Shown here piece after piece: positions 1,796-46,101 of a DNA stretch of 64,000 bases (positions within the stretch are counted from its first letter, which is position 1; the number at the start of each line of letters is the position of its first letter). The stretch covers positions 21,315-85,314 of the forward strand of contig SHMW01000007.1 in NCBI GenBank assembly GCA_008080735.1. Reading direction: 5' to 3'. The position numbers were made by a program, and so were the translations under genes. Origin of the DNA: Promethearchaeota archaeon. Its GTDB lineage: Archaea > Asgardarchaeota > Lokiarchaeia > Sigyniarchaeales > SOKP01. The notes under the pieces are model-generated. The model was not told the DNA's origin and ran no database searches. It saw only the letters and a program-made list of their open reading frames with translations.

Positions 1796-2740
1796 TTAAA
1801 ACTTTTCATTGAATCCATCAAATTGGTCTATTAATAAATCGGAATCTTTTCTATATAATACATTTAGCGCATAAGCCTGATTCGACAAATAGGTTTCTCC
1901 TAATAGTAGAGATACTCGTATATGATGGTCATTTTCACTAAATATTGGTACAATTGAATCCCATTTAGAAAAAAAGGAATAATTTTTGGTCAACTCTAAA
2001 GTTTTATCAAGAAGAACCATTTTTTTGGAATTTTTATCGATTTGAGTATCAATTAATTTCTGTTTTTGATTTTTAAAATAGGATTTTTTGAATAATTGGT
2101 ATCGTATACAAGACTCTTCGTTAATGTATTTGTAAATATAATAATCAAATGGATATAATCCGGGAATATATTTGGAATTCTTGGATAACTTGAATTTGAA
2201 TATAATTTTGGATACAAATTTATTGAGAAAATATATTGAATAGAACAACACAAAGCTGGGAAATAGATAAAAAAGTAATATGAAAGGATTTAAAAACCTA
2301 AAGAAAATTGAGACAATAAGAATACCTATTGAAATGAACATTAAGAAAGGATTTACCGCTCTATCAATGAAAAAGCGATATTTCTTCTTTGAAAAAGGAT
2401 ACACGATTGGAATCTTTGAGGCAGTGAGAAAATCAAAGAAAATATGGAGAAAATAAAATGCAGTCCCGATAATCCAAGTAGCAATTAAATCTGCTCCCAT
2501 TAGAAAAAAAAGAAATACACTAGGGAAGAATGAAATTAGAATAGCACCCACAATAGAATGAGAAACGCCTTTATGCGATAACAATTTAGAATTCCTAAAT
2601 TTGGGGATTATTTCAAGAAAAACATCCAAATCAGCTAAAATTGCCATAAATACCGCGTAGTAAAAAAAAACTATATCCATTCCTTTTAACAGATAACTAG
2701 CGAATAAAATAGCAATAATAAAGTGCGAAAAAAAGTCCAT
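1796..2740 (-). CDS. Membrane-bound metal-dependent hydrolase, YdjM/DUF457-like
   Basis: Multiple TM segments plus DLDVFLE...LSHKGVSHSIVGA motif. Confidence 0.7.
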   Translation of the reverse strand: MDFFSHFIIAILFASYLLKGMDIVFFYYAVFMAILADLDVFLEIIPKFRNSKLLSHKGVSHSIVGAILISFFPSVFLFFLMGADLIATWIIGTAFYFLHIFFDFLTASKIPIVYPFSKKKYRFFIDRAVNPFLMFISIGILIVSIFFRFLNPFILLFYLFPSFVLFYSIYFLNKFVSKIIFKFKLSKNSKYIPGLYPFDYYIYKYINEESCIRYQLFKKSYFKNQKQKLIDTQIDKNSKKMVLLDKTLELTKNYSFFSKWDSIVPIFSENDHHIRVSLLLGETYLSNQAYALNVLYRKDSDLLIDQFDGFNEKF

Positions 2741-2908: not shown

Positions 2909-3340
2909 TCAATATGAGATATCCCGGTCCTCTAAAAACGATTTAATTTTTTCTTCAAGTTCATCCCGTGCAGATCTAAATCGTTCAATTCTTTCTTCCT
3001 CAGAACCTTCAAATGCAGCGGGATCTTCAATATTCCAAAATAACCTCGTGCTCACTCCTGGCAGGGTGGGACATAATTTTTCAGCCTTTTGACATACGGT
3101 AATAACAATCCCGAAATGCTTCTCTCCTAAATATTGATCCAAATCTTTAGAGTAATGATCACTCATATCATATCCCTTTTCTTCCATAACTTTTTTAGTA
3201 AGAGGATGAATTTCCTTTGGCTCAAACCCCGCGCTGAATACATTGAAATAATCTCCAGCAAGTTTGTCCAAAATCGCTTCTGCCATCTGACTTCTTGCTT
3301 GATTATGAGTACATAAAAAAATTACACTCGGCTTTTTCAT
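2909..3340 (-). CDS. arsC: Arsenate reductase, low-MW protein tyrosine phosphatase type
   Basis: FLCTHNQARSQMAEA P-loop; VITVCQKAEKLCPTLPG; FWNIEDPAAFEGSEEE. Confidence 0.88.
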   Translation of the reverse strand: MKKPSVIFLCTHNQARSQMAEAILDKLAGDYFNVFSAGFEPKEIHPLTKKVMEEKGYDMSDHYSKDLDQYLGEKHFGIVITVCQKAEKLCPTLPGVSTRLFWNIEDPAAFEGSEEERIERFRSARDELEEKIKSFLEDRDISY

Positions 3341-3591: not shown

Positions 3592-3942
3592 TCAACAACC
3601 AGGGTCAAGTTGAATATTAATGTCACTCTCTGGTATTAAGGAATAATCGGGATTTTCATGTAAAGGCATAAATTCTCTATTAGGGCCGTAGGCCATTATT
3701 CCCACATCATCATATATTTTATTGGTTTTCGGATTCCAGATTAATTGTAAATAGTTATAAATATATCCTTCGAAAATGGGGAAGATACAATCTTCTGGAT
3801 TATTTTTTATGTATTTGTCGACTTTAGCAATGGCTTCAGCTAGATTCGCATCGTCTTTAATTTGGACATTAAAAGATTTTCCTTGAGACAACCCACTATA
3901 GGGCATGCTTATACTAATTTTGATGGTTTTAAATTCAATCAC
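3592..3942 (-). CDS. Small beta-grasp/ubiquitin-like candidate ending in DPGC, last gene of the ars/hgc run
   Basis: Co-directional ORF; ISMPYSGLSQGKSFNVQI...SLIPESDINIQLDPGC resembles MoaD/ThiS/ubiquitin strand pattern; weak. Confidence 0.4.
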   Translation of the reverse strand: MIEFKTIKISISMPYSGLSQGKSFNVQIKDDANLAEAIAKVDKYIKNNPEDCIFPIFEGYIYNYLQLIWNPKTNKIYDDVGIMAYGPNREFMPLHENPDYSLIPESDINIQLDPGC

Positions 3943-4005: not shown

Positions 4006-4431
4006 CTATTTGCTTGACCATAATTTGACCTTACTTTCTATTTGGTCACGTATTTTTCTAAAAAAAGCCAATTTTTCCTCCTCGGAGCCTTCAAACGCTG
4101 CGGGGTCTTCGAAAGGCCAATGTAATTCTTCTTGTACACCCAGAATAGTGGGGCAGGATTCTTTAGCACTCGAACAAACAGTAATAACAATATCAATATC
4201 AATTTTCTTCATTAATTCTCTTATATGCTTTGAGTTATGACCACTCCAATCGAATCCTGCCTCTTCGAGCACTTTTATAGTATATGGATGTATGGGATGC
4301 GGTTCTGTTCCTGCACTATAGGCATTATATCTATCATTTCCATATTTATTGATAAATGCTTCCGTCATTTGACTCCTGCATGAGTTCCCCGTACATACGA
4401 CTACTATATTTTTTTTACCCATTTGAATCAT
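4006..4431 (-). CDS. arsC: Arsenate reductase, low-MW protein tyrosine phosphatase type (second copy)
   Basis: VVCTGNSCRSQMTEAF; VITVCSSAKESCPTILG; WPFEDPAAFEGSEEEK. Confidence 0.9.
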   Translation of the reverse strand: MIQMGKKNIVVVCTGNSCRSQMTEAFINKYGNDRYNAYSAGTEPHPIHPYTIKVLEEAGFDWSGHNSKHIRELMKKIDIDIVITVCSSAKESCPTILGVQEELHWPFEDPAAFEGSEEEKLAFFRKIRDQIESKVKLWSSK

Positions 4432-4462
4432 CTCTCGTTGAATGTAATTTTGGGGGTATGTT

Positions 4463-4741
4463 TTAATTTATGAATCCTCTTTCCTTTAAAATCTTGGGTA
4501 ATTGTTTTTTTAAAGCATAAACTGAGGATATTTTTTTTTTTTCATCAATTATAATACATTTTTGAAATAATTTCATCTTCGCAGCTTTTTTGGAATGTAA
4601 TGATTTTGTATCGTGTTCAATATATTTTATATATGGTGTAAGGACTTCAAAAACGCGATTCATAAAATTTTCCCATTCACATGCACAAACTTGAAGCGGA
4701 ACATAAATATCTACTTTAACTTTTTCATTCTGGTTTGACAT
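4463..4741 (-). CDS. Small CxC-motif protein, possible thioredoxin-fold or metallochaperone
   Basis: VDIYVPLQVCACEWENFMNRVFEVL...KCIIIDEK; within arsenic/hgc operon. Confidence 0.5.
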   Translation of the reverse strand: MSNQNEKVKVDIYVPLQVCACEWENFMNRVFEVLTPYIKYIEHDTKSLHSKKAAKMKLFQKCIIIDEKKKISSVYALKKQLPKILKERGFIN

Positions 4742-4768
4742 AAAAATCCTTCTTATGAATAATTAAAA

Positions 4769-5104
4769 TTAACAACAACATTCATTATTATTTTTCTTCG
4801 AACGTTTTCTAGCATCCCATAAGCACCCACACCCTTTTTGTTCTTGCATTATTATCGCGTGGGTTGGACAATTTCTCTCACATGCACTACATTCAGTACA
4901 TTTTTCAGGCTCACCGATATTATATGTCCCATCGTTTTCCTCTTTTAGAAGTCCAAATGGGCATATCTCCTCACACAAACCGCAACCGATACATTTTGAG
5001 GGATCTATAGCTATCTTTAAGTTTAAATTCTTCAAAAAACCTTCAATAACACTGCTAGAGTCACAACAGCTATTGTTTTTTTCTAATTTTGTCATTTTTC
5101 TCAA
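4769..5104 (-). CDS. hgcB: HgcB-like ferredoxin, 2x[4Fe-4S] with C-terminal Cys cluster
   Basis: CIGCGLCEEICP and CTECSACERNCP clusters, downstream GCGC, terminal ECCC; lies immediately 3' of the HgcA-like gene (17 nt gap). Confidence 0.8.
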   Translation of the reverse strand: MRKMTKLEKNNSCCDSSSVIEGFLKNLNLKIAIDPSKCIGCGLCEEICPFGLLKEENDGTYNIGEPEKCTECSACERNCPTHAIIMQEQKGCGCLWDARKRSKKNNNECCC

Positions 5105-5121
5105 AACATTATAGATTCTTA

Positions 5122-6786
5122 TTATAATATTATTATACTCAAAAGGGTAAGAAATAACCCAACACAGAGTAAAATGTAATTTAATTTTTTAAATAATGGA
5201 TATTCATTTCTAATTTCTCTTGGGTTTGTTGACATAGTATATCCGCTAAAAGACATTGTAGTGAAGAATCCAATCCATAGAAAAAAGATTAAATTTAGAA
5301 TAACGTAGTATAACGAAAAACTAAGAAACCACGTAACTATTCCAAGGGAAATTGTATTAATAATACCAAAAAACATACTTTTTAGAACAAAATTACGCGT
5401 AAAGTTAGAGAGAGGGTAAAGGAGAATTAATAAAAGATTTGGAAAGAGTATCCAAATTAAAAGATCGGCAGCCATCCAAGTTTTATTGATGATATTCGCA
5501 AGATCTAGGGCAAAAAGGATAAAAAATAGAATAATTAATGGAAGAAGAAATATTTTTCTCAAAAGAAATGTCGTATGTGTTATTCCCGCAGGAATCCGAT
5601 GTCGGAAAGTAAATTTGGCTCTCTTCATTTGCTTAGACTTCTTCTTTGGTTTTTTAATAAGGTATTCCTTCAAGTACCGTGACCATACTGGACCATATTC
5701 AATCTTAAATGGAAATATTTCTGAATGCTCTGGTAAATTGGGTTTTGAAAGCCCTCCGGCAGAAAGCTGGGGTAAAATGATAGTATTATTGTCAGTAATA
5801 TGTTTCACGCCTGTCGCTTCAACCGCTTCAAGTAATTGTTCATTACCAAAATCATCTCCTCTCGCAGCACACCAGACATTAATACCATTAGAGTCAATAC
5901 ATAATATCCATGCATCAATACCTTCTAAATCTCTCATAACTTTAATAAAAGTATATGCATAATTAGCAGTTGCAATAATCGGAGAATAATTATTTGGATT
6001 ACCCGATTTATATAATCCAGGTTCAATCGGAACATTATCAACCTGACCTGTCAATAGGCATCTCCAAATTTTTAGTTGTGATGAAATACCTTTTATTTTT
6101 GGTTTTTCTGGTTTATAATAACCCGGTTCATTCTTTTCTTCTTCAAATGATTTTTCTAATTCTATAGCTTGAATTGATCCGTGAGTCCATTTTTTTATGT
6201 CGGCTATTTTGAAACCAATCGGTTCTAAATAATCTTCAAAATACTCTAAAGGATTAGTTCTCTCAAGTTTTAATCTTCTTAATTTTTTATTATATAACCA
6301 CCTTTTCACCCAGAATGGAACCTTCCAAACTCCAGAGGGAATAAACTCTGCTGCAATTATTAATCGACCATCAGATTTTAATGCTTTCCACGCATTACGA
6401 AGAAAGATTTGTTGTTCCAACGGTCTTAGTTCTGATAACATAAAGGTACTAATGATTAAATCCTGAGAATCCTCTGGAACTTTCAAATCTTTAATTGTAC
6501 CAATTTGATATAGCAAATCTATATTATCTTTTTTTGGCATATTTTTCAAAGCATAGCTAATCATCTGATAATTTTCATCAAGAGCTCTGACTTTAGCGCC
6601 TTTTAACGCAATCTTTAAAGCCAAAATCCCAGTGCCGCACCCAACTTCTAAAACAGATTGATCATATTCAATCTTTTCTAAGATCCAGTTCTGAATTTTA
6701 ATATTTACTCCTTTTGTGAGATTAGTAAACTTTGAATCGTAATTTGCAGGTTCCTGCTCCAATTTTTGCATGTAAGTAACAGCCAT
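5122..6786 (-). CDS. hgcA: SAM-dependent methyltransferase fused to HgcA-like membrane corrinoid protein
   Basis: Residues ~1-210 class I MTase (VLEVGCGTGILALKIA); residues ~230-390 HgcA/CFeSP-like domain with GINVWCAARGDDFGNEQLLEAVEATGV...IILPQLSAGGLSK...FKIEYGPV; C-terminal multi-TM region. Confidence 0.82.
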   Translation of the reverse strand: MAVTYMQKLEQEPANYDSKFTNLTKGVNIKIQNWILEKIEYDQSVLEVGCGTGILALKIALKGAKVRALDENYQMISYALKNMPKKDNIDLLYQIGTIKDLKVPEDSQDLIISTFMLSELRPLEQQIFLRNAWKALKSDGRLIIAAEFIPSGVWKVPFWVKRWLYNKKLRRLKLERTNPLEYFEDYLEPIGFKIADIKKWTHGSIQAIELEKSFEEEKNEPGYYKPEKPKIKGISSQLKIWRCLLTGQVDNVPIEPGLYKSGNPNNYSPIIATANYAYTFIKVMRDLEGIDAWILCIDSNGINVWCAARGDDFGNEQLLEAVEATGVKHITDNNTIILPQLSAGGLSKPNLPEHSEIFPFKIEYGPVWSRYLKEYLIKKPKKKSKQMKRAKFTFRHRIPAGITHTTFLLRKIFLLPLIILFFILFALDLANIINKTWMAADLLIWILFPNLLLILLYPLSNFTRNFVLKSMFFGIINTISLGIVTWFLSFSLYYVILNLIFFLWIGFFTTMSFSGYTMSTNPREIRNEYPLFKKLNYILLCVGLFLTLLSIIIL

Positions 6787-6810
6787 TTAAACCTCTCTGA
6801 TGTATCTAAA

Positions 6811-7875
6811 TTATTTTTTATTTATCCTCCAAAAGCCTTTTCTTCCGAGGAATTTCCCTATATATACAATGGAGAGCATTATTGGAATCTCCCAAAAAAG
6901 CCCCATAGTTGTCCCAAGGGCAGCTATGCTTCCAACCCCGTATAATCCCACTGCAGTTGCGATTGCAATTTCAAAATGCGACGATGAACCTATTATTACG
7001 CTGATTATCGCCTCCTTATAAGCGAAGCCCAGAATTTTCGTAACCATGATGTTGTATAAGACAACGATAAAAAATCCCACCAACAAGGGGATAGAAACGA
7101 TGACCATTAATTGGGGATTGTTCAATAATACTTCTCCATTTAAGGAAAACAGAATAATTAATGTTGTCAATAAGGCTACGATAGAGATCTTTCCTACAGC
7201 AGGTTTATAGGTATTTTGAAACCAACTTTCACCTTTCGATTTTATTAAAAATTTTCGTGAAAGAATGCCTATTAAAAGTGGAAGTCCAATGAAAACTATT
7301 CCAGAAATTAGAAGTTGAGTCCAATCAATAGGGATATTCTGTATTCCCGTCAATAAAGACACCATAGGTACATATCCAATTATTATTGTAATCGTGTTTA
7401 TGCTAGTTGTCAATACATTCTGTTCTTGATTTCCTTTTGCCATCCAACCCCAAACTAGGACCATCGCGGTACATGGAGAACTGGATAAAAGAATTATTGC
7501 AACAATGAGCTGCTGATCCACTAAAAAAATGTTAGCCATTGCCAATCCGACAAATGGGGCAATTAACCAATTTGAAACTAACGTGGCGATGACGGGTTTT
7601 GGATCTCTTCCTATCTGTTTTAATTCTGAGTATTGAAAATTTAACATCGCAGGATACATCATCAAAAATAAGCAAATGCCTATAGGAATTGAGATCCCAC
7701 CTATTTTGATTGATTCGATGAATTCTCCTATTCCTGAAACCACTTGAGAAAGTAAAATCCCAATGAATATACATAGAGCAACCCACGCAGGAAGAAACTT
7801 TTCAAAATAGCCAAGTTTTTTTTCTCTTTCTTTTAGCTCTTCCTCAATAGTTACTGAATTTCTTTTTTCAGACAT
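6811..7875 (-). CDS. acr3: ACR3-family arsenite efflux transporter
   Basis: Ten-TM-like; PIGICLFLMMYPAMLNFQYSELKQIGRDPKPV, SSPCTAMVLVWGWMAKGNQEQNV, GSSSHFEIAIATAVGLYG. Confidence 0.93.
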   Translation of the reverse strand: MSEKRNSVTIEEELKEREKKLGYFEKFLPAWVALCIFIGILLSQVVSGIGEFIESIKIGGISIPIGICLFLMMYPAMLNFQYSELKQIGRDPKPVIATLVSNWLIAPFVGLAMANIFLVDQQLIVAIILLSSSPCTAMVLVWGWMAKGNQEQNVLTTSINTITIIIGYVPMVSLLTGIQNIPIDWTQLLISGIVFIGLPLLIGILSRKFLIKSKGESWFQNTYKPAVGKISIVALLTTLIILFSLNGEVLLNNPQLMVIVSIPLLVGFFIVVLYNIMVTKILGFAYKEAIISVIIGSSSHFEIAIATAVGLYGVGSIAALGTTMGLFWEIPIMLSIVYIGKFLGRKGFWRINKK

Positions 7876-8094
7876 AATTTTTTCAGATTTTCGATATATA
7901 TTTTCTGTTTATGAGTTTCATATTAGGTGAATTTATGCTCAGATTTAAATCTATCGATTTGAAATACTTGAGAAACTATAATGTTGAATATTTTAATCTA
8001 TGGTACTTATTCAAGAATAGTAAGAGCTAAGGTTAAAAAATACTCCATTATCAAACAGCAATTGAGGGAAAACGATCTATTGATAATAGGATTC

Positions 8095-8880
8095 TTATTC
8101 TAAATGAGAATGTGGAGATCCGAGAGGAACCAATGTATAATCGCCTCCAGATTCAAGTAAACCTTTTTTAAGGAGTTCTTCACAGAAGGGATTACCATAA
8201 AGATTTATATACAAATTTTTATTATGAATATAAGGGAGGATATCATCAGGGTTTGCGAGGAGATTACTTGAGAGTTCGACGGTGAGAAGATTTGGATGGC
8301 TAGTAAGATCGGGAAGCCGAGTTATTTGATTATTGAAGAGTAAAAGCTCATATAAATCAGGGAGAGAATAAATTTCACGAATTTTATCTATCTTATTACA
8401 ATTTATAGAGAGAGATCTTAGCTTTTTCAGTTTTTCAAGTCCTTCCATTTTAATAATATTATTCCAACCTAATGAAAGTCCTTCTAAATTTATATTTTTT
8501 TCTAACCCTTGAATAGTTCTAACTTGATTTAATTGGAGGGATAATCTTTTCAGTTTTGTTAGATTTTCGAGTCCTTTAATTTTAGAGATCTTATTTCTTC
8601 CTAAATTAAGAACTACAAGATTTTTGAGATGATTGATTCCTTTAATCTCACTGATTTGATTGTTACATAAACTTAGATATCTTAAGTTAGAAAGATATTT
8701 AATTCCTTGGATTTTAGATAACTTGCATCCAGAAATATCAATTCTTTTTAATTCAGTTAGACTTTCAAGCCCTTTTATTTCTGTAATATCTTTAAGTGTC
8801 GGAGAATTATTTATTATTAGTGAATTATTGCTAACATAGAATTTTTGACCATCAAACTCTACACACTGATTTTCTGTCAT
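8095..8880 (-). CDS. SDS22-like leucine-rich repeat protein
   Basis: About 8 tandem ~22-aa repeats of type L..L..L.L..N.I..I.GL..L. Confidence 0.88.
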   Translation of the reverse strand: MTENQCVEFDGQKFYVSNNSLIINNSPTLKDITEIKGLESLTELKRIDISGCKLSKIQGIKYLSNLRYLSLCNNQISEIKGINHLKNLVVLNLGRNKISKIKGLENLTKLKRLSLQLNQVRTIQGLEKNINLEGLSLGWNNIIKMEGLEKLKKLRSLSINCNKIDKIREIYSLPDLYELLLFNNQITRLPDLTSHPNLLTVELSSNLLANPDDILPYIHNKNLYINLYGNPFCEELLKKGLLESGGDYTLVPLGSPHSHLE

Positions 8881-9213: not shown

Positions 9214-9594
9214 AGTGTTGAAAAATTTATATTGGGGAGAGTTAGGATTTGTCCAATGTTCTCTCCATCCATCTTTTGTTGTAGCAGCCGAAAAGAAAGT
9301 GTCACGAGCAACCTTAAATGTTAGAGTCTCTGGATTCCAAAATTTAGTATTTAATAGATTAGGTAATATTTTTTGAGAAGGAATATTAGCGAAAAAGTAT
9401 AAAAATCGAAAATTTGTGATATTCTTCTTTTATCAAAATTTTGTGTGATTTGAAATCTTTAAAATATTCTCCTAAAATTTATCGATTCGGATTCATCATG
9501 GTCAATCTGAAATCTATAATTACTTTATAACACTATATTGATATAGAGAAAGGAATATTGGTGATTTAATATAGATAGAGAAAGAAAAAAAGAA

Positions 9595-9984
9595 GTGATG
9601 AATACTTTAGAGAGTTGCGTGGATATGGAGGGTGTTAATATGGTCCAATATTTTAATGAATTGAGGGAATTAGGAAAATCTATTCAAAAAAATAAAAAGT
9701 TTAGAGAAGTCTTGGACTTCTGCAACACTCTGGGCAATGAAGAACGTTTAAAAATCGTTGAGAGTCTTAAAAAGCAAGACCATTGTGTATGCGAATTAGA
9801 GGTTATTTTAGACAAATCTCAACCAACCATTTCCCATCACTTACGGGAACTGGAAAAGATTGGACTCATACGAGGCTGGAAAAAAGGAAAATTTACTCAT
9901 TATGATATTGTTGATGAGAAAATGGAGCATTATATAAGTTTATTGACATCACGTTTTAAAGAGAAGGGAAAATCCTCTAATTAA
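9595..9984 (+). CDS. arsR: ArsR-family winged-helix regulator
   Basis: LGNEERLKIVESLKKQDHCVCELEVILDKSQPTISHHLRELEKIGLIRGWKKGKFTHYDI. Confidence 0.9.
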   Translation: MMNTLESCVDMEGVNMVQYFNELRELGKSIQKNKKFREVLDFCNTLGNEERLKIVESLKKQDHCVCELEVILDKSQPTISHHLRELEKIGLIRGWKKGKFTHYDIVDEKMEHYISLLTSRFKEKGKSSN

Positions 9985-42183: not shown

Positions 42184-43077
42184 TTAAAAATCCTTATACT
42201 CGAAAGTTGAGAAGATTTCTTTAATTTTCTCCTTCTCCTCCTTTTCCAACCAAGTAGAACGACTATATTCCCTTATTTTTCCTAATTTGGAAATTTTCGA
42301 AACCCATAAAGGATTATAGGGTAAGAGTTCAATCTTTTTTATTCCCTTTTTTTGGAGATATTCTTTCCAATTATTTAAATTCTGTTCCGTTGCGGTGATC
42401 TCCGGAATTAACGGGATACGTGGTAATAGCTCAATATCCTCTTTTTTTAATATTATTTCAAAATTCTGCAGAATCGTAGTGTTATCCTTCCCGCAATATC
42501 TCTTATGGTCTTTTGAGTCAAAGATCTTTAAATCGAAATATATTAGATCTAAATAGGGTAATATTAATTCGTAAAATTGTTCATAAGCAAAATGTCCACA
42601 TGTTTCCAAGCAAACATGTATCTCATGTTTCTTTACTTTCTTTAAAAATTCATTTAAAAATTTCATTTGCATTGTCGCTTCACCCCCAGACAGCGTGATT
42701 CCACCACCCGAGTTTTTGTAGAAGACCTTATCTTTTAATATCTCATCGAGCAGTTCCTCGACTTCATATTCAAATGCAGTAAATTTTAAGGCGCTTGTAT
42801 CACATACTTGAATGCATTTTCCGCAAAAATCACAGATTTCAATTTGAATAGGATATTTTAAGGAAAAATCGATTGCTCCATTAGGACATTTCTCTTGACA
42901 GCTTAAACAGCTTATACAAGATTCAATATCATAAGTGATCTCTTGTGTCATAGTTTTTGTCTCTGGATTTTGGCACCATACGCATGATAAGGGACATCCT
43001 TTAAAAAAGATTAATGTACGAATTCCCGGACCGTCATCCAGAGCATTACGCTTTATATTTGTTAAGATAGCTTTCAT
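42184..43077 (-). CDS. Glycyl-radical enzyme activating enzyme (radical SAM with ferredoxin insert)
   Basis: FFKGCPLSCVWCQNPE, CISCLSCQEKCPNGAI, GGGITLSGGEATMQ. Confidence 0.93.
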   Translation of the reverse strand: MKAILTNIKRNALDDGPGIRTLIFFKGCPLSCVWCQNPETKTMTQEITYDIESCISCLSCQEKCPNGAIDFSLKYPIQIEICDFCGKCIQVCDTSALKFTAFEYEVEELLDEILKDKVFYKNSGGGITLSGGEATMQMKFLNEFLKKVKKHEIHVCLETCGHFAYEQFYELILPYLDLIYFDLKIFDSKDHKRYCGKDNTTILQNFEIILKKEDIELLPRIPLIPEITATEQNLNNWKEYLQKKGIKKIELLPYNPLWVSKISKLGKIREYSRSTWLEKEEKEKIKEIFSTFEYKDF

Positions 43078-43125
43078 AAATGCATATAAAAAAGAAAATA
43101 ATCTTAAATAAATTAATATTAAAAA

Positions 43126-46101
43126 TTAGTGTGTTTTAAATTCTGTTCGCTCTATGATTTCCATCTGGAGATCTTTATTTAAATCAACAAAATAGGCATT
43201 ATATCCCGAGATTCTGACCATTAACCATCCATAATTCTCAGGATTCTTCATTGCATCCCTAAGAGTATCGGTTGATACCACGTTGAACTGAATTTGCATA
43301 CCCCCCAAATCAAAATAACTCTGCGTATAGCCATAAAACTGATCAATGGTCTCTTCGTGTGTATCATGGGCCCCCGGCACTAATTTGATGTTAAACGCGA
43401 GATTATTTGGCATCTTCACGGTGTCTAATGCAGCTACAGATCGTATGTTTTCTATTAGTACGTCTTTATCACTGGGTACGGGAGTTAGGCCAGGAGTAAA
43501 TGGTTTGTTTGCTTTTCTCCCATTAGGTAGAGCACCCGAGAGAGTTCCGAAGGCAACATGATTAGACATACTCCAAAAGCCCACCAAATATCTGCCTCCT
43601 CGATAATTCTCAAATGAATAAAAATCATCATACACATAATCAATGATATCTTGTCCTAGCGAAATTGTCTCACTATCATCCACACCGAATTTTGGAATTG
43701 ATTGGATTCGCTTAAGAAGTAATTCACCTTCTGGAGTGGAGAAATTATTTGCTACATGTTGGTTTAATTCCGTAAATGAGATTTCCTCATTATCATATAC
43801 CAGAGTTTTAACCACTTTTAATGTATCAATAATATCTGCTAATCCAATCATCGCTACTCCCGATGTATTGTAGATTGCTCCTCCATCCACGAGATCCTTT
43901 CCTTTCTCCAATGGTCCTTCATATAAGGAGCTTAGCAGTGGAGAAGGATGAAGGATTTGATGTGTTGTTCCGAGATAATTATTAATTTCCACACTTTTTT
44001 CTATAATAAAATGAAGTTGTTTTTGAAAAGCATCTGTAAAGGCATCGAAGGTCTTAAAATCAGAAACATCCCCCGTTTGAGGGCCAAATACTAGTGTATC
44101 GCTCACGACGGGATGGATTCCATTATTCAATGTCATCTCCATTGCTGCTACCATATTATACATCATGCTATTAGTATGTCCGAAATGTTTCCCGCAGATA
44201 GTGGGCTCAACGCAACCAGTCGCCGCCCATGTCCTCGCATCCTCTAATTCTATCCCAATCTTGGTCAAAGCCTCTATCATTTTGAGATCATTGTGAATCG
44301 ACGGGGTGGCATGAGTGTTAATATTAACTTCCAAAAGCCGATCTAAATATTCTTTTGAATTTACTCCAGGACAATATCGTGCGTTCATATTCGGATCTCT
44401 CAGCTGGAGCATCTCTGTCACTTTTAGGATGATAAATGTCATATCGCATATTGCTGAATTACCCCTTTTATCGACTCCTCCAACGGTAAGGGCAAAGTCT
44501 TGACTACTGCCTCCGAATAAGTGATTGCCTACGTCTGGGACTAATGGTGCTTGATCGGAGACTCTCATAAAGAAATTACCCATTAATTCTATTGATCGCC
44601 GTACATATTTTTCCTTCTCTTCTTGGGAGGTTATCTTTTTCATATCCGCTTCGAAATATGGCTGCAGCCAGTGGTCTAAGCGCCCTAAAGATAATCCCAT
44701 ATGAGGATTTTCTTGGGTAAGGGCAATCCACATAATCCATATAGAAGTAATAGCCTCTTCCAGCGTTTCTGGGGGTTCGGCTGGCACCCGAGAAAGGACT
44801 GACGACATACGTAAAAGATCCTCTTTTCTCTGTTTCATTCTTTTTGAGGAATTCTCATTAATTTCTTGAGCTTTTTGTTTTGCATGTTCTCCAAGATTTT
44901 TTGAATAGTTAAGTACTCCTTCCAATGCTAATTGTATACCTTTATAAAAATCCTTCTTTTTTCCCTCAGAGGTATGTGCCTCTTTCTCCTCGATTTCTCG
45001 AAGTAATCCACCTACACCTTTTTGTAAAAATGCAGGAAAACCCGGAATCGTGTGCGAGATTGCTTGGGTTTTCCACATAAAGTAAAATACGAAATGTTCA
45101 TCCATACGATGAGAAAGCGCATTATTATCAAGAATTCTGGTATATTCTCTGATATTTCTGTCCATCCAGTAGGGAAATACCTCATAATTGAGAATATCAA
45201 TTGCTTGTTGGTCAATAACATGTGGGTTGAGCTCTCGGGCGTCGATTGAATATAATTCTGGCCAAAAAATAATTGCTCCAAATTCAGGATAAATCATTGT
45301 GCCTAAGGTCTTGGTAGTTGAAGTGCCCGGAAGAATTGACCAGTCTTGGATCATCGGTGTTTTCTCTGATAAAATATAATTTACTATTTTACCCATTTTT
45401 AACCCTGGATGCTCATGATTTCCATCTTCTGGAGTGTAGCCGATTTCTTTGCAGATATCGGTCACAAGTTTCGCACGCTCAGCACATACTTCTAAATCTG
45501 ACATGGAGCGGATATATTTTAAATATTCTAGCTGTTTGAAATCGCTCAGAGTGTATTCGCTCAAATATGGGTCGTCTAAATATTTAACCTTATCAATCTT
45601 ATACCCTAATGATTTATTTTTCATATGTTCTGTGCCATTTTTCCAATTGGAAAACTCTTCTAAATCTATAATGGCCTTCGTTTCCCACTCTTGTTGTCGT
45701 TGATCAAACCCATCCTTATGCCTAAGGAGAATATAACAAAGCAGAAAGAAAAATTTCGCCATATCACTTAAATTACCGATAGTGTGGATTTCATTTTTCA
45801 GCATCATATTAATGACTTCTTCGGGCTTGCTCCGGGGAAGTTTTTTAAAGTCCTTCACTTTCTTATATTTGATCGTCACAGAGGGATTTTCTATTATATC
45901 CTCGATTACTTCCATATTACCATCATTAAAGATGATTGAGACGCTTTCCTCCTCATCCTCCTCAGTAGTAAAAAGGATTCGAGAATTAAAGACGTGCCCG
46001 GTCTCCTCATTATAAATCTCTTTTGTGAAGTTAGGATCCTCATCAAGCGTCTTTTTCATTAACCTAAATACGTTCGCAATTTTCTGTTTTACTCTTGCCA
46101 T
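43126..46101 (-). CDS. Glycyl radical enzyme (pyruvate formate-lyase superfamily) with N-terminal SCP2-like domain
   Basis: Active-site ATGCVEPTICG; C-terminal glycyl motif VRISGYNAYFVDL; N-terminal ~130 aa SVSIIFNDGNMEVIEDIIENPSVTIKYKKVKDFKKL...LKNEIHTIGNLSDMAKFFFL resembles SCP2. Confidence 0.9.
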   Translation of the reverse strand: MARVKQKIANVFRLMKKTLDEDPNFTKEIYNEETGHVFNSRILFTTEEDEEESVSIIFNDGNMEVIEDIIENPSVTIKYKKVKDFKKLPRSKPEEVINMMLKNEIHTIGNLSDMAKFFFLLCYILLRHKDGFDQRQQEWETKAIIDLEEFSNWKNGTEHMKNKSLGYKIDKVKYLDDPYLSEYTLSDFKQLEYLKYIRSMSDLEVCAERAKLVTDICKEIGYTPEDGNHEHPGLKMGKIVNYILSEKTPMIQDWSILPGTSTTKTLGTMIYPEFGAIIFWPELYSIDARELNPHVIDQQAIDILNYEVFPYWMDRNIREYTRILDNNALSHRMDEHFVFYFMWKTQAISHTIPGFPAFLQKGVGGLLREIEEKEAHTSEGKKKDFYKGIQLALEGVLNYSKNLGEHAKQKAQEINENSSKRMKQRKEDLLRMSSVLSRVPAEPPETLEEAITSIWIMWIALTQENPHMGLSLGRLDHWLQPYFEADMKKITSQEEKEKYVRRSIELMGNFFMRVSDQAPLVPDVGNHLFGGSSQDFALTVGGVDKRGNSAICDMTFIILKVTEMLQLRDPNMNARYCPGVNSKEYLDRLLEVNINTHATPSIHNDLKMIEALTKIGIELEDARTWAATGCVEPTICGKHFGHTNSMMYNMVAAMEMTLNNGIHPVVSDTLVFGPQTGDVSDFKTFDAFTDAFQKQLHFIIEKSVEINNYLGTTHQILHPSPLLSSLYEGPLEKGKDLVDGGAIYNTSGVAMIGLADIIDTLKVVKTLVYDNEEISFTELNQHVANNFSTPEGELLLKRIQSIPKFGVDDSETISLGQDIIDYVYDDFYSFENYRGGRYLVGFWSMSNHVAFGTLSGALPNGRKANKPFTPGLTPVPSDKDVLIENIRSVAALDTVKMPNNLAFNIKLVPGAHDTHEETIDQFYGYTQSYFDLGGMQIQFNVVSTDTLRDAMKNPENYGWLMVRISGYNAYFVDLNKDLQMEIIERTEFKTH

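Follow-up and report, generated by a model that had tools for sequence, protein, structure and literature searches.

A CpaM-HgcA-like fusion and an HgcB-like ferredoxin in an archaeal arsenic operon: a candidate corrinoid-dependent metalloid methyltransferase

HgcA and HgcB, the corrinoid protein and the ferredoxin that methylate Hg(II), have relatives encoded among the arsenic genes of a Promethearchaeota archaeon, which raises the question of the element on which such a pair would act. We analysed this locus within a stretch of 64,000 nucleotides of contig SHMW01000007.1 (hereafter, the window). The original prediction placed a corrinoid protein and its ferredoxin inside an archaeal arsenic operon and left their substrate open; this is borne out by the ORFs, the profile searches and the conserved neighbourhood, and an ORF check on the window reproduced every coordinate exactly, with all the ORFs of that prediction on the minus strand (Table 1). 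ArsR, arsenite efflux and arsenate reductase are present in one cluster, in which 24 nt separate ACR3 from the methyltransferase-HgcA fusion and 17 nt separate the fusion from the HgcB-like gene. The ACR3 of the window has both the PCTAM motif, found in 23 of 24 relatives, and LFWEIPIML. We propose, with moderate confidence, that the fusion and the HgcB-like protein together act as a corrinoid-dependent methyltransferase, anchored in the membrane and fuelled by SAM, whose role is to detoxify a thiophilic metalloid; As(III) (or Sb(III)) is the most likely one.

Table 1. Genes, domains and operator-like sites of the arsenic gene cluster (positions in the window).
Feature	Position	Strand	Basis
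YdjM-like membrane protein, 314 aa, recurrent last cluster member	1796..2740	-	PF04307 56 bits
Second ArsC, 143 aa	2909..3340	-	TIGR02691 115 bits; CTHNQAR, C-x6-C
Beta-grasp-like protein, 116 aa, PGC C-terminus, conserved operon member	3592..3942	-	no family match
ArsC, thioredoxin-type arsenate reductase, 141 aa	4006..4431	-	TIGR02691 138 bits; CTGNSCR, C-x6-C
CxC protein, predicted thioredoxin fold, 92 aa	4463..4741	-	predicted structure; no family match
HgcB-like dicluster ferredoxin, 111 aa	4769..5104	-	NF040864 56 bits (cut-off 99)
Methyltransferase-HgcA fusion, one 554-aa ORF	5122..6786	-	NF043040 and NF040863 matches within a single chain
HgcA-like corrinoid-binding domain and five-helix membrane domain, aa 240-554 of fusion	5125..6069	-	NF040863 169 bits, aa 248-550
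Cap helix NVWCAARG, aa 303-310, putative Co-ligating Cys306	5857..5880	-	R309-G310 in place of HgcA G-K
CpaM-type class I SAM methyltransferase domain, aa 1-215 of fusion	6142..6786	-	NF043040 141 bits, aa 4-211
ACR3 arsenite efflux transporter, 354 aa, first gene of the operon	6811..7875	-	TIGR00832 276 bits (cut-off 283)
Operator-like site TCGATTTGAAA, 1 mismatch to TCGATTTGAAT, ~79 nt upstream of ACR3 start	7954..7964	+	
Weaker second copy TCGATTCGGAT, 2 mismatches, upstream of arsR	9482..9492	+	
ArsR/SmtB repressor, CVCEL metal site, divergent from the operon	9595..9984	+	NF033788 75 bits

A methyltransferase domain had been noticed at the N-terminus of the fusion; its membership in the CpaM family had been missed. 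The match to NF043040 lies below the cut-off of 180 bits and far ahead of other methyltransferase profiles, and related fusions from Heimdallarchaeota (222 bits) and Poribacteria (230 bits) pass that cut-off. The GxGxG motif, E10, Y16, SEL and E147 are conserved features of the domain. ArsM (NF008823) shares the SAM methyltransferase fold, and a disguised ArsM was considered and rejected: ArsM-profile scores are weak and the arsenic-binding cysteines of ArsM are absent from the CpaM domain, 51 of 63 such domains having no cysteine outside motif I. Direct arsenic methylation by CpaM alone is therefore unlikely; by hypothesis, the domain would work through cobalt. The methyl donor demonstrated for HgcAB is SAM (PMC11588087), and in the fusion a SAM methyltransferase is covalently attached.

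Among the loci fetched, the other Asgard HgcA relatives usually have CpaM as an adjacent gene, and no CpaM was detected next to true hgcA; in the window CpaM and the HgcA-like corrinoid protein are encoded in one ORF. The HgcAB-like fusion protein system (NF043039 with NF043040) likewise combines a CpaM partner with an HgcA-like corrinoid domain, and both kinds occur in Asgard archaea. There, however, CpaM has its own gene next door and the HgcA part usually carries the ferredoxin in the same chain, whereas in the window HgcB is a separate ORF; the Lokiarchaeal family of this system also has the cap NVWCGACG. The window fusion scores 168 bits against the HgcAB-like fusion profile (cut-off 285).

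The fusion and its ferredoxin could instead be a corrinoid pair for another reaction, such as organoarsenical demethylation, redox or thiol-metal repair, with CpaM acting on something other than the corrinoid. We regard this as quite unlikely, given that methyl transfer from SAM to Co(I) runs in essentially one direction in HgcAB (PMC11588087) and that fusion and adjacency both suggest that CpaM and HgcA work as a functional pair. Nevertheless, the function of CpaM is hypothetical (its NCBIfam label is hypoth_equivalog), functionally unassigned HgcAB-like pairs exist outside ars operons, and purified HgcAB uses SAM without CpaM (PMC11588087), so that the corrinoid is not necessarily what CpaM acts on.

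The corrinoid domain is clearly related to HgcA without being HgcA proper. Its 169 bits against the HgcA equivalog NF040863 stand below the cut-off of 275, true HgcAs from named organisms scoring 423-454 in the same searches, but well above its 60 bits against the gamma subunit of the corrinoid iron-sulfur protein (CFeSP; PRK04165, PF03599), which has a homologous corrinoid-binding fold. CFeSP lacks the cap cysteine and has no membrane domain; a CFeSP/ACS subunit was ruled out by profile scores, membrane domain and cap Cys. An AF2 model of the two-domain fusion chain (pLDDT 89.5, pTM 0.86) contains the cap helix and, in agreement with hydropathy, five membrane helices (394-429, 437-462, 466-489, 492-514 and 522-553); among PDB entries it matches the HgcAB model 9a0b best (E 7e-14). 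Profile and fold thus uphold the predicted kinship with HgcA. The cap motif N(V/I)WCA(A/G)GK that had been quoted for this protein, on the other hand, is absent: where HgcA has G(I/V)NVWCAAGK, the fusion has GINVWCAARG, with R309-G310 in place of G-K. Both R and G are invariant among the 32 Loki/Thor members compared, and in 38 true HgcAs the same positions are G (100%) and K (97%). The cap Cys and the corrinoid-site residues, whose contact roles were assigned after PMC7305189, are invariant in the family alignment. In a tree that takes in related genomes, a long branch with full support sets the 38 true HgcAs apart, with the fusion outside them.

The HgcB-like ferredoxin shows a comparable pattern. 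Below the NF040864 cut-off in score, it has in the alignment two CxxCxxCxxxC clusters, a lone Cys after them and terminal cysteines, which are kept in 50-51 of 51 relatives. The lone Cys lies in a GCGC motif equivalent to the site of HgcB Cys73 (GVGC in HgcB) and the protein ends in CCC; GCGC and a Cys-rich tail occur in 51/51 relatives.

With an NVWC-cap corrinoid domain, a membrane domain, a dicluster ferredoxin and these cysteines all shared with HgcA/HgcB, the pair might be a divergent mercury methylase with Hg(II) as its substrate, merely co-located with arsenic genes. Bacterial hgcAB does adjoin ars genes at times, as previously reported (McDaniel 2020) and as seen here for true hgcA beside ACR3/ArsC at three loci (L135, L169 and L180). 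However, the sub-threshold scores of both proteins, the change of the cap from GK to RG and the separate clade all argue against mercury. In addition, one poribacterium, the only fusion carrier in three Poribacteria genomes searched, has both a true HgcA and a CpaM-HgcA fusion, and a cultured Pyrococcus and a Methanococcoides, whose HgcAB-like proteins are of the fused type, produced no methylmercury (PMC7319479). We consider a mercury methylase unlikely; arsenic or a similar element is probably the methylation target of the fusion.

The neighbourhood of the fusion in relatives points to arsenic as well. The fusion recurs at about 60 loci in Asgard archaea, lokiarchaeal ones included, and on the chromosome of the cultured Ca. 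Prometheoarchaeum syntrophicum MK-D1 as ArsR | ACR3-fusion-HgcB; chance or an assembly artefact is thereby ruled out. The conservation in relatives that the prediction called for was found, in the order ArsR|ACR3-fusion-HgcB-CxC-BG-ArsC. In counts that include related genomes and rest on loci with adequate flanks, 32 of 47 fusion loci have an ars gene no more than 5 kb away, versus none of 15 HgcAB-like/separate loci (Fisher p 2e-6). In the remaining 15 of the 47 there is no ars gene within 5 kb, and some have a MarR-type regulator instead. These 15 loci would fit a corrinoid module that hitchhikes without an arsenic role and is retained through old linkage. Such a history is nonetheless highly improbable in our view: in 19 of 24 loci ACR3 and the fusion either overlap or lie 8 to 65 nt apart, and ArsR also adjoins ACR3-less fusions and the poribacterial fusion.

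Regulation by a metalloid is consistent with the ArsR sequences. The metal site CVCE[LFI] is found in 33/33 ArsRs of related loci, and the operator-like motif, at one mismatch or fewer, in 22/33 ArsR upstream regions versus 11/653 control upstreams; clear ArsR palindromes common to many loci were not found, just a partial common core. ArsR CVC sites can bind Cd, Pb, Bi or Sb too.

In the mechanism that we propose, ArsR would sense the metalloid and release the operon. As(III) would be generated from As(V) by the ArsCs, with the thioredoxin-like CxC protein serving them, and the HgcB-like protein would bring the cobalt to the Co(I) state by reduction. Co(I) would accept a methyl cation that the fused CpaM domain takes from SAM, and the methyl-Co(III) so formed would be ligated by the cap Cys306; thiol-bound As(III), delivered by the tail cysteines and the GCGC site of the HgcB-like protein, would then take the methyl group. 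ACR3 would carry out the As(III) that stays unmethylated, and the methylated product would diffuse out or be exported; methylated arsenic, unlike As(III)/Sb(III), is not exported by ACR3. As(III) methylation by methylcobalamin proceeds even without an enzyme (review PMC6950371).

An identical gene set could, instead of detoxifying, arm the cell against its neighbours: the product would be a toxic methylated metalloid, for instance trivalent monomethylarsenic, and ACR3 and ArsC would either provide As(III) or relieve it. In favour of this idea, the toxicity of trivalent methylarsenic under anoxic conditions exceeds that of arsenite. We hold it to be very unlikely, however, as the co-location with efflux and the control by ArsR suit self-protection at least equally and a dedicated methylarsenic exporter was not identified in the cluster.

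To return to detoxification, ArsM was not detected at E<=1e-60 in the genome of the window, its genus or MK-D1. It does occur in 9 of 41 fusion-bearing genomes of the family, and arsM lies in or beside two related clusters (L083 and L051); mutual exclusion of fusion and ArsM is not significant (p 0.25). We know of no dedicated enzyme for the vitamin-B12 route of arsenic methylation, nor of an established substrate for HgcA relatives that do not methylate mercury. It is possible, though we put it forward tentatively, that Asgard archaea, including a cultured one, have here a dedicated, ArsM-independent system for cobalamin-dependent methylation of arsenic (or antimony), a self-contained relay from SAM to cobalt to metalloid. 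If so, the HgcA family handles several elements, of which mercury is just one, and a cobalt-based arsenic methylase would alter models of arsenic cycling in anoxic sediments.

As far as our literature search reached, the fusion, the divergent clade and the MK-D1 locus are new; it returned no paper on Asgard HgcA in ars operons, although an earlier mention in the 2023 literature on hgcAB evolution is possible. A large hgcA survey demanded NVWCAAGK and dropped low scores (PMC7438021), and fusion genes would be lost from it for both reasons. Lax hgcA profiles could equally count them wrongly as mercury methylators.

As for the small proteins of the operon, neither the CxC protein nor the beta-grasp-like ORF has a family match in profile searches, and PDB sequence searches with them gave nothing or chance-level matches only. 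The AF2 model of the CxC protein (pLDDT 88) has mostly thioredoxins as its best PDB fold matches (TM ~0.6, all E > 0.006), and the CxC motif is invariant across its family. The beta-grasp-like gene adjoins CxC in about 10 of 47 loci and a YdjM-like gene is present in 7 of 47. Finally, since this large clade of HgcA relatives, linked to arsenic genes and with a SAM domain of its own, is present in the cultured MK-D1, the substrate question is directly testable; MK-D1 also has a second, shorter HgcA-like gene, sized like the HgcAB-like fusion protein family.

The minus-strand run of genes described in the original prediction matches its description exactly, and the fusion locus is real, conserved and unusual. 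In profile searches of the window ORFs, ACR3 scores 276 bits and the HgcB-like ferredoxin 56 bits, while the 554-aa ORF matches CpaM ('corrinoid protein-associated methyltransferase'; 141 bits, aa 4-211) and, C-terminal to it, the HgcA profile (169 bits, aa 248-550). The proposed comparison with CFeSP, the corrinoid protein homologous to HgcA, also favors the HgcA profile, given that CFeSP gamma reaches just 60 bits. The closest named relatives are Lokiarchaeota, and the genus to which the window belongs includes Candidatus Lokiarchaeota archaeon isolate BC1.

Features of the ars locus in window coordinates
Feature	Position	Strand	Remark
Second ArsC, thioredoxin-type	2909-3340	-	profile 115 bits
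ArsC, thioredoxin-type	4006-4431	-	profile 138 bits
TCGATTTGAAT copy, operator-like	7954-7964	+	79 nt before ACR3
Weaker TCGATTTGAAT copy	9482-9492	+	before arsR
ArsR	9595-9984	+	profile identity

Matches to the HgcA profile occur in 154/231 Asgard genomes, a count that takes in weak CFeSP-type matches, and none lies above the cut-off. Sixty fusion loci were examined, 47 of them with adequate flanks. HgcB adjoins the fusion in 42/47; the other neighbors are ArsR (30), ACR3 (19), the CxC protein (14), the beta-grasp protein (10), ArsC (5) and ArsM (2). At least one ars gene is present at 32/47 fusion loci versus 0/15 HgcAB-like or separate loci (Fisher p = 1.7e-6, which is optimistic because related genomes are not independent). 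In the cultured Ca. Prometheoarchaeum syntrophicum MK-D1 (L130), the order ArsR | ACR3-fusion-HgcB is found, and fusions lacking ACR3 adjoin ArsR in Thorarchaeota and in one poribacterium. At three loci of one genus (L060, L061, L076), an NADPH-FMN-reductase-like flavoprotein of 189-199 aa, possibly a redox partner, lies between arsR and the fusion.

Of the ArsR proteins adjoining fusions, 33/33 contain CVCE with L, F or I as the next residue, and CVCE-type sites are a known kind of As(III)/heavy-metal site. Allowing at most one mismatch, the core TCGATTTGAAT is found upstream of 22/33 of these arsR genes (22/28 in Lokiarchaea) against 11/653 control upstreams, an enrichment that is post hoc because the motif was discovered in the same data. 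Between ACR3 and the divergent arsR lie a gene for a leucine-rich-repeat protein and one small ORF (8095-8880); since ACR3 and arsR are direct neighbors in many relatives, this segment appears to have been inserted, breaking up the divergent promoter. Fusion loci without ArsR (L053, L070, L080, L084 and others) have upstream a regulator of the MarR type that contains Cys motifs (TCCQ and GCCPG in L053), which suggests a regulator swap with metal sensing retained.

The AlphaFold2 model of the fusion (pLDDT 89.5, pTM 0.86) is confident over nearly the whole length and shows a methyltransferase of Rossmann fold, a corrinoid domain whose short cap helix spans 304-309, and five membrane helices. 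In the PDB, the HgcAB integrative model 9a0b matches it best (E = 7e-14), with SAM methyltransferases next. The PQL-A-G and GP motifs are invariant, and so are cap Cys306, N303, V304 and W305. Two cap positions separate the classes: they are G-K in 38 true HgcAs (100% and 97%) and R-G in 32/32 Loki/Thor fusions compared, with NVWCAAGG in a small Asgard group (L062, L063, L065, L082). In a quick-search tree with SH-aLRT support only and an arbitrary root, a long branch with full support separates true HgcAs from the rest; the Lokiarchaeal fusions make up a single clade, to which Thorarchaeota (97) and, next, Heimdallarchaeota (92, under the star threshold) attach. The protein is a variant of the HgcA kind with As(III)/Sb(III) as putative substrate, and is not HgcA itself. 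The CpaM tree gave no resolution on the number of fusion events.

The only non-Asgard fusion among 80 loci is poribacterial. That genome (G231; C165, C262; L150) encodes a true HgcA (451 bits) as well as a CpaM-HgcA fusion (232 bits) that has ArsR before it; this coexistence is a strong hint that the two differ in function. HgcAB-like proteins cluster with triple fusions of about 640 aa, in which CpaM, an HgcA-like domain and a dicluster ferredoxin share one chain (L114, L116, L117 in Asgard genomes G082, G204, G189); that of L116 exceeds both HgcAB-like and CpaM cut-offs and has an ACR3-like gene 1.9 kb away. Two more deep HgcA-like lineages of Asgard genomes (L101-L103, L113, L115; 320-327 aa, with adjacent CpaM in several) have the caps NVWCSAAGGHF and NVWCGSRGGHV.

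The HgcB-like protein keeps both 4Fe-4S motifs, a lone Cys after them and a Cys-rich terminus; it has GCGC where two aligned true HgcBs have GVGC, and GCGC with the Cys-rich tail recurs in 51/51 relatives. The corresponding HgcB cysteines are required for mercury methylation (PMC7305189). Mercury is an improbable substrate here. The methyl acceptor is inferred to be As(III) or Sb(III), because of ACR3, ArsC, ArsR and the CC-rich tails. With a SAM methyltransferase built into the corrinoid protein, the natural reading is that methyl groups would pass from SAM to Co(I) and on to the acceptor. In purified HgcAB the methyl donor is SAM, and transfer runs through a Cys-ligated methyl-Co(III) (PMC11588087). 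Methylcobalamin can methylate As(III) non-enzymatically (PMC6950371).

The CpaM domain conserves GxGxG, E10, Y16, the SEL motif and E147. No conserved cysteines occur outside motif I in CpaM domains, and it is therefore not an ArsM. At E ≤ 1e-60, ArsM is absent from the genome that holds the window, from its genus and from MK-D1; across the family, exclusion between ArsM and fusion is not significant (p = 0.25). Genes for arsM lie inside or beside the CpaM-HgcA cluster in L083 (G112) and L051 (G097), the former between ACR3 and fusion and with the Cys-rich N-terminus CCAPVNSCCTPISSCC.

Profile and PDB sequence searches returned no match for the CxC protein. Its model (pLDDT 88) best matches thioredoxins (TM about 0.6), a likeness stated at fold level only, given a best E of 0.006; several homologues have Cys-rich N-terminal tails. 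Both window ArsCs keep C-x5-R and C-x6-C. A cold-seep survey stated that Asgard lineages lack arsC, arsC1/arsC2 (PMC10060404), whereas this Asgard genome has two thioredoxin-type genes.

NCBIfam already has named families for CpaM and for HgcAB-like proteins, and hgcAB flanked by acr3 and arsC has been described in putative methylators (PMC7438021); we find such bacterial flanks also at L135, L169 and L180. No paper describing the fusion in Asgard ars operons, the RG cap class or the MK-D1 locus came up in a limited literature search. The hgcA survey demanded NVWCAAGK and dropped low-scoring matches (PMC7438021), criteria that the fusion clade would not have passed. Elsewhere in the window (42184-46101), a pyruvate formate-lyase-like glycyl-radical enzyme of 991 aa is adjoined by its activating enzyme.
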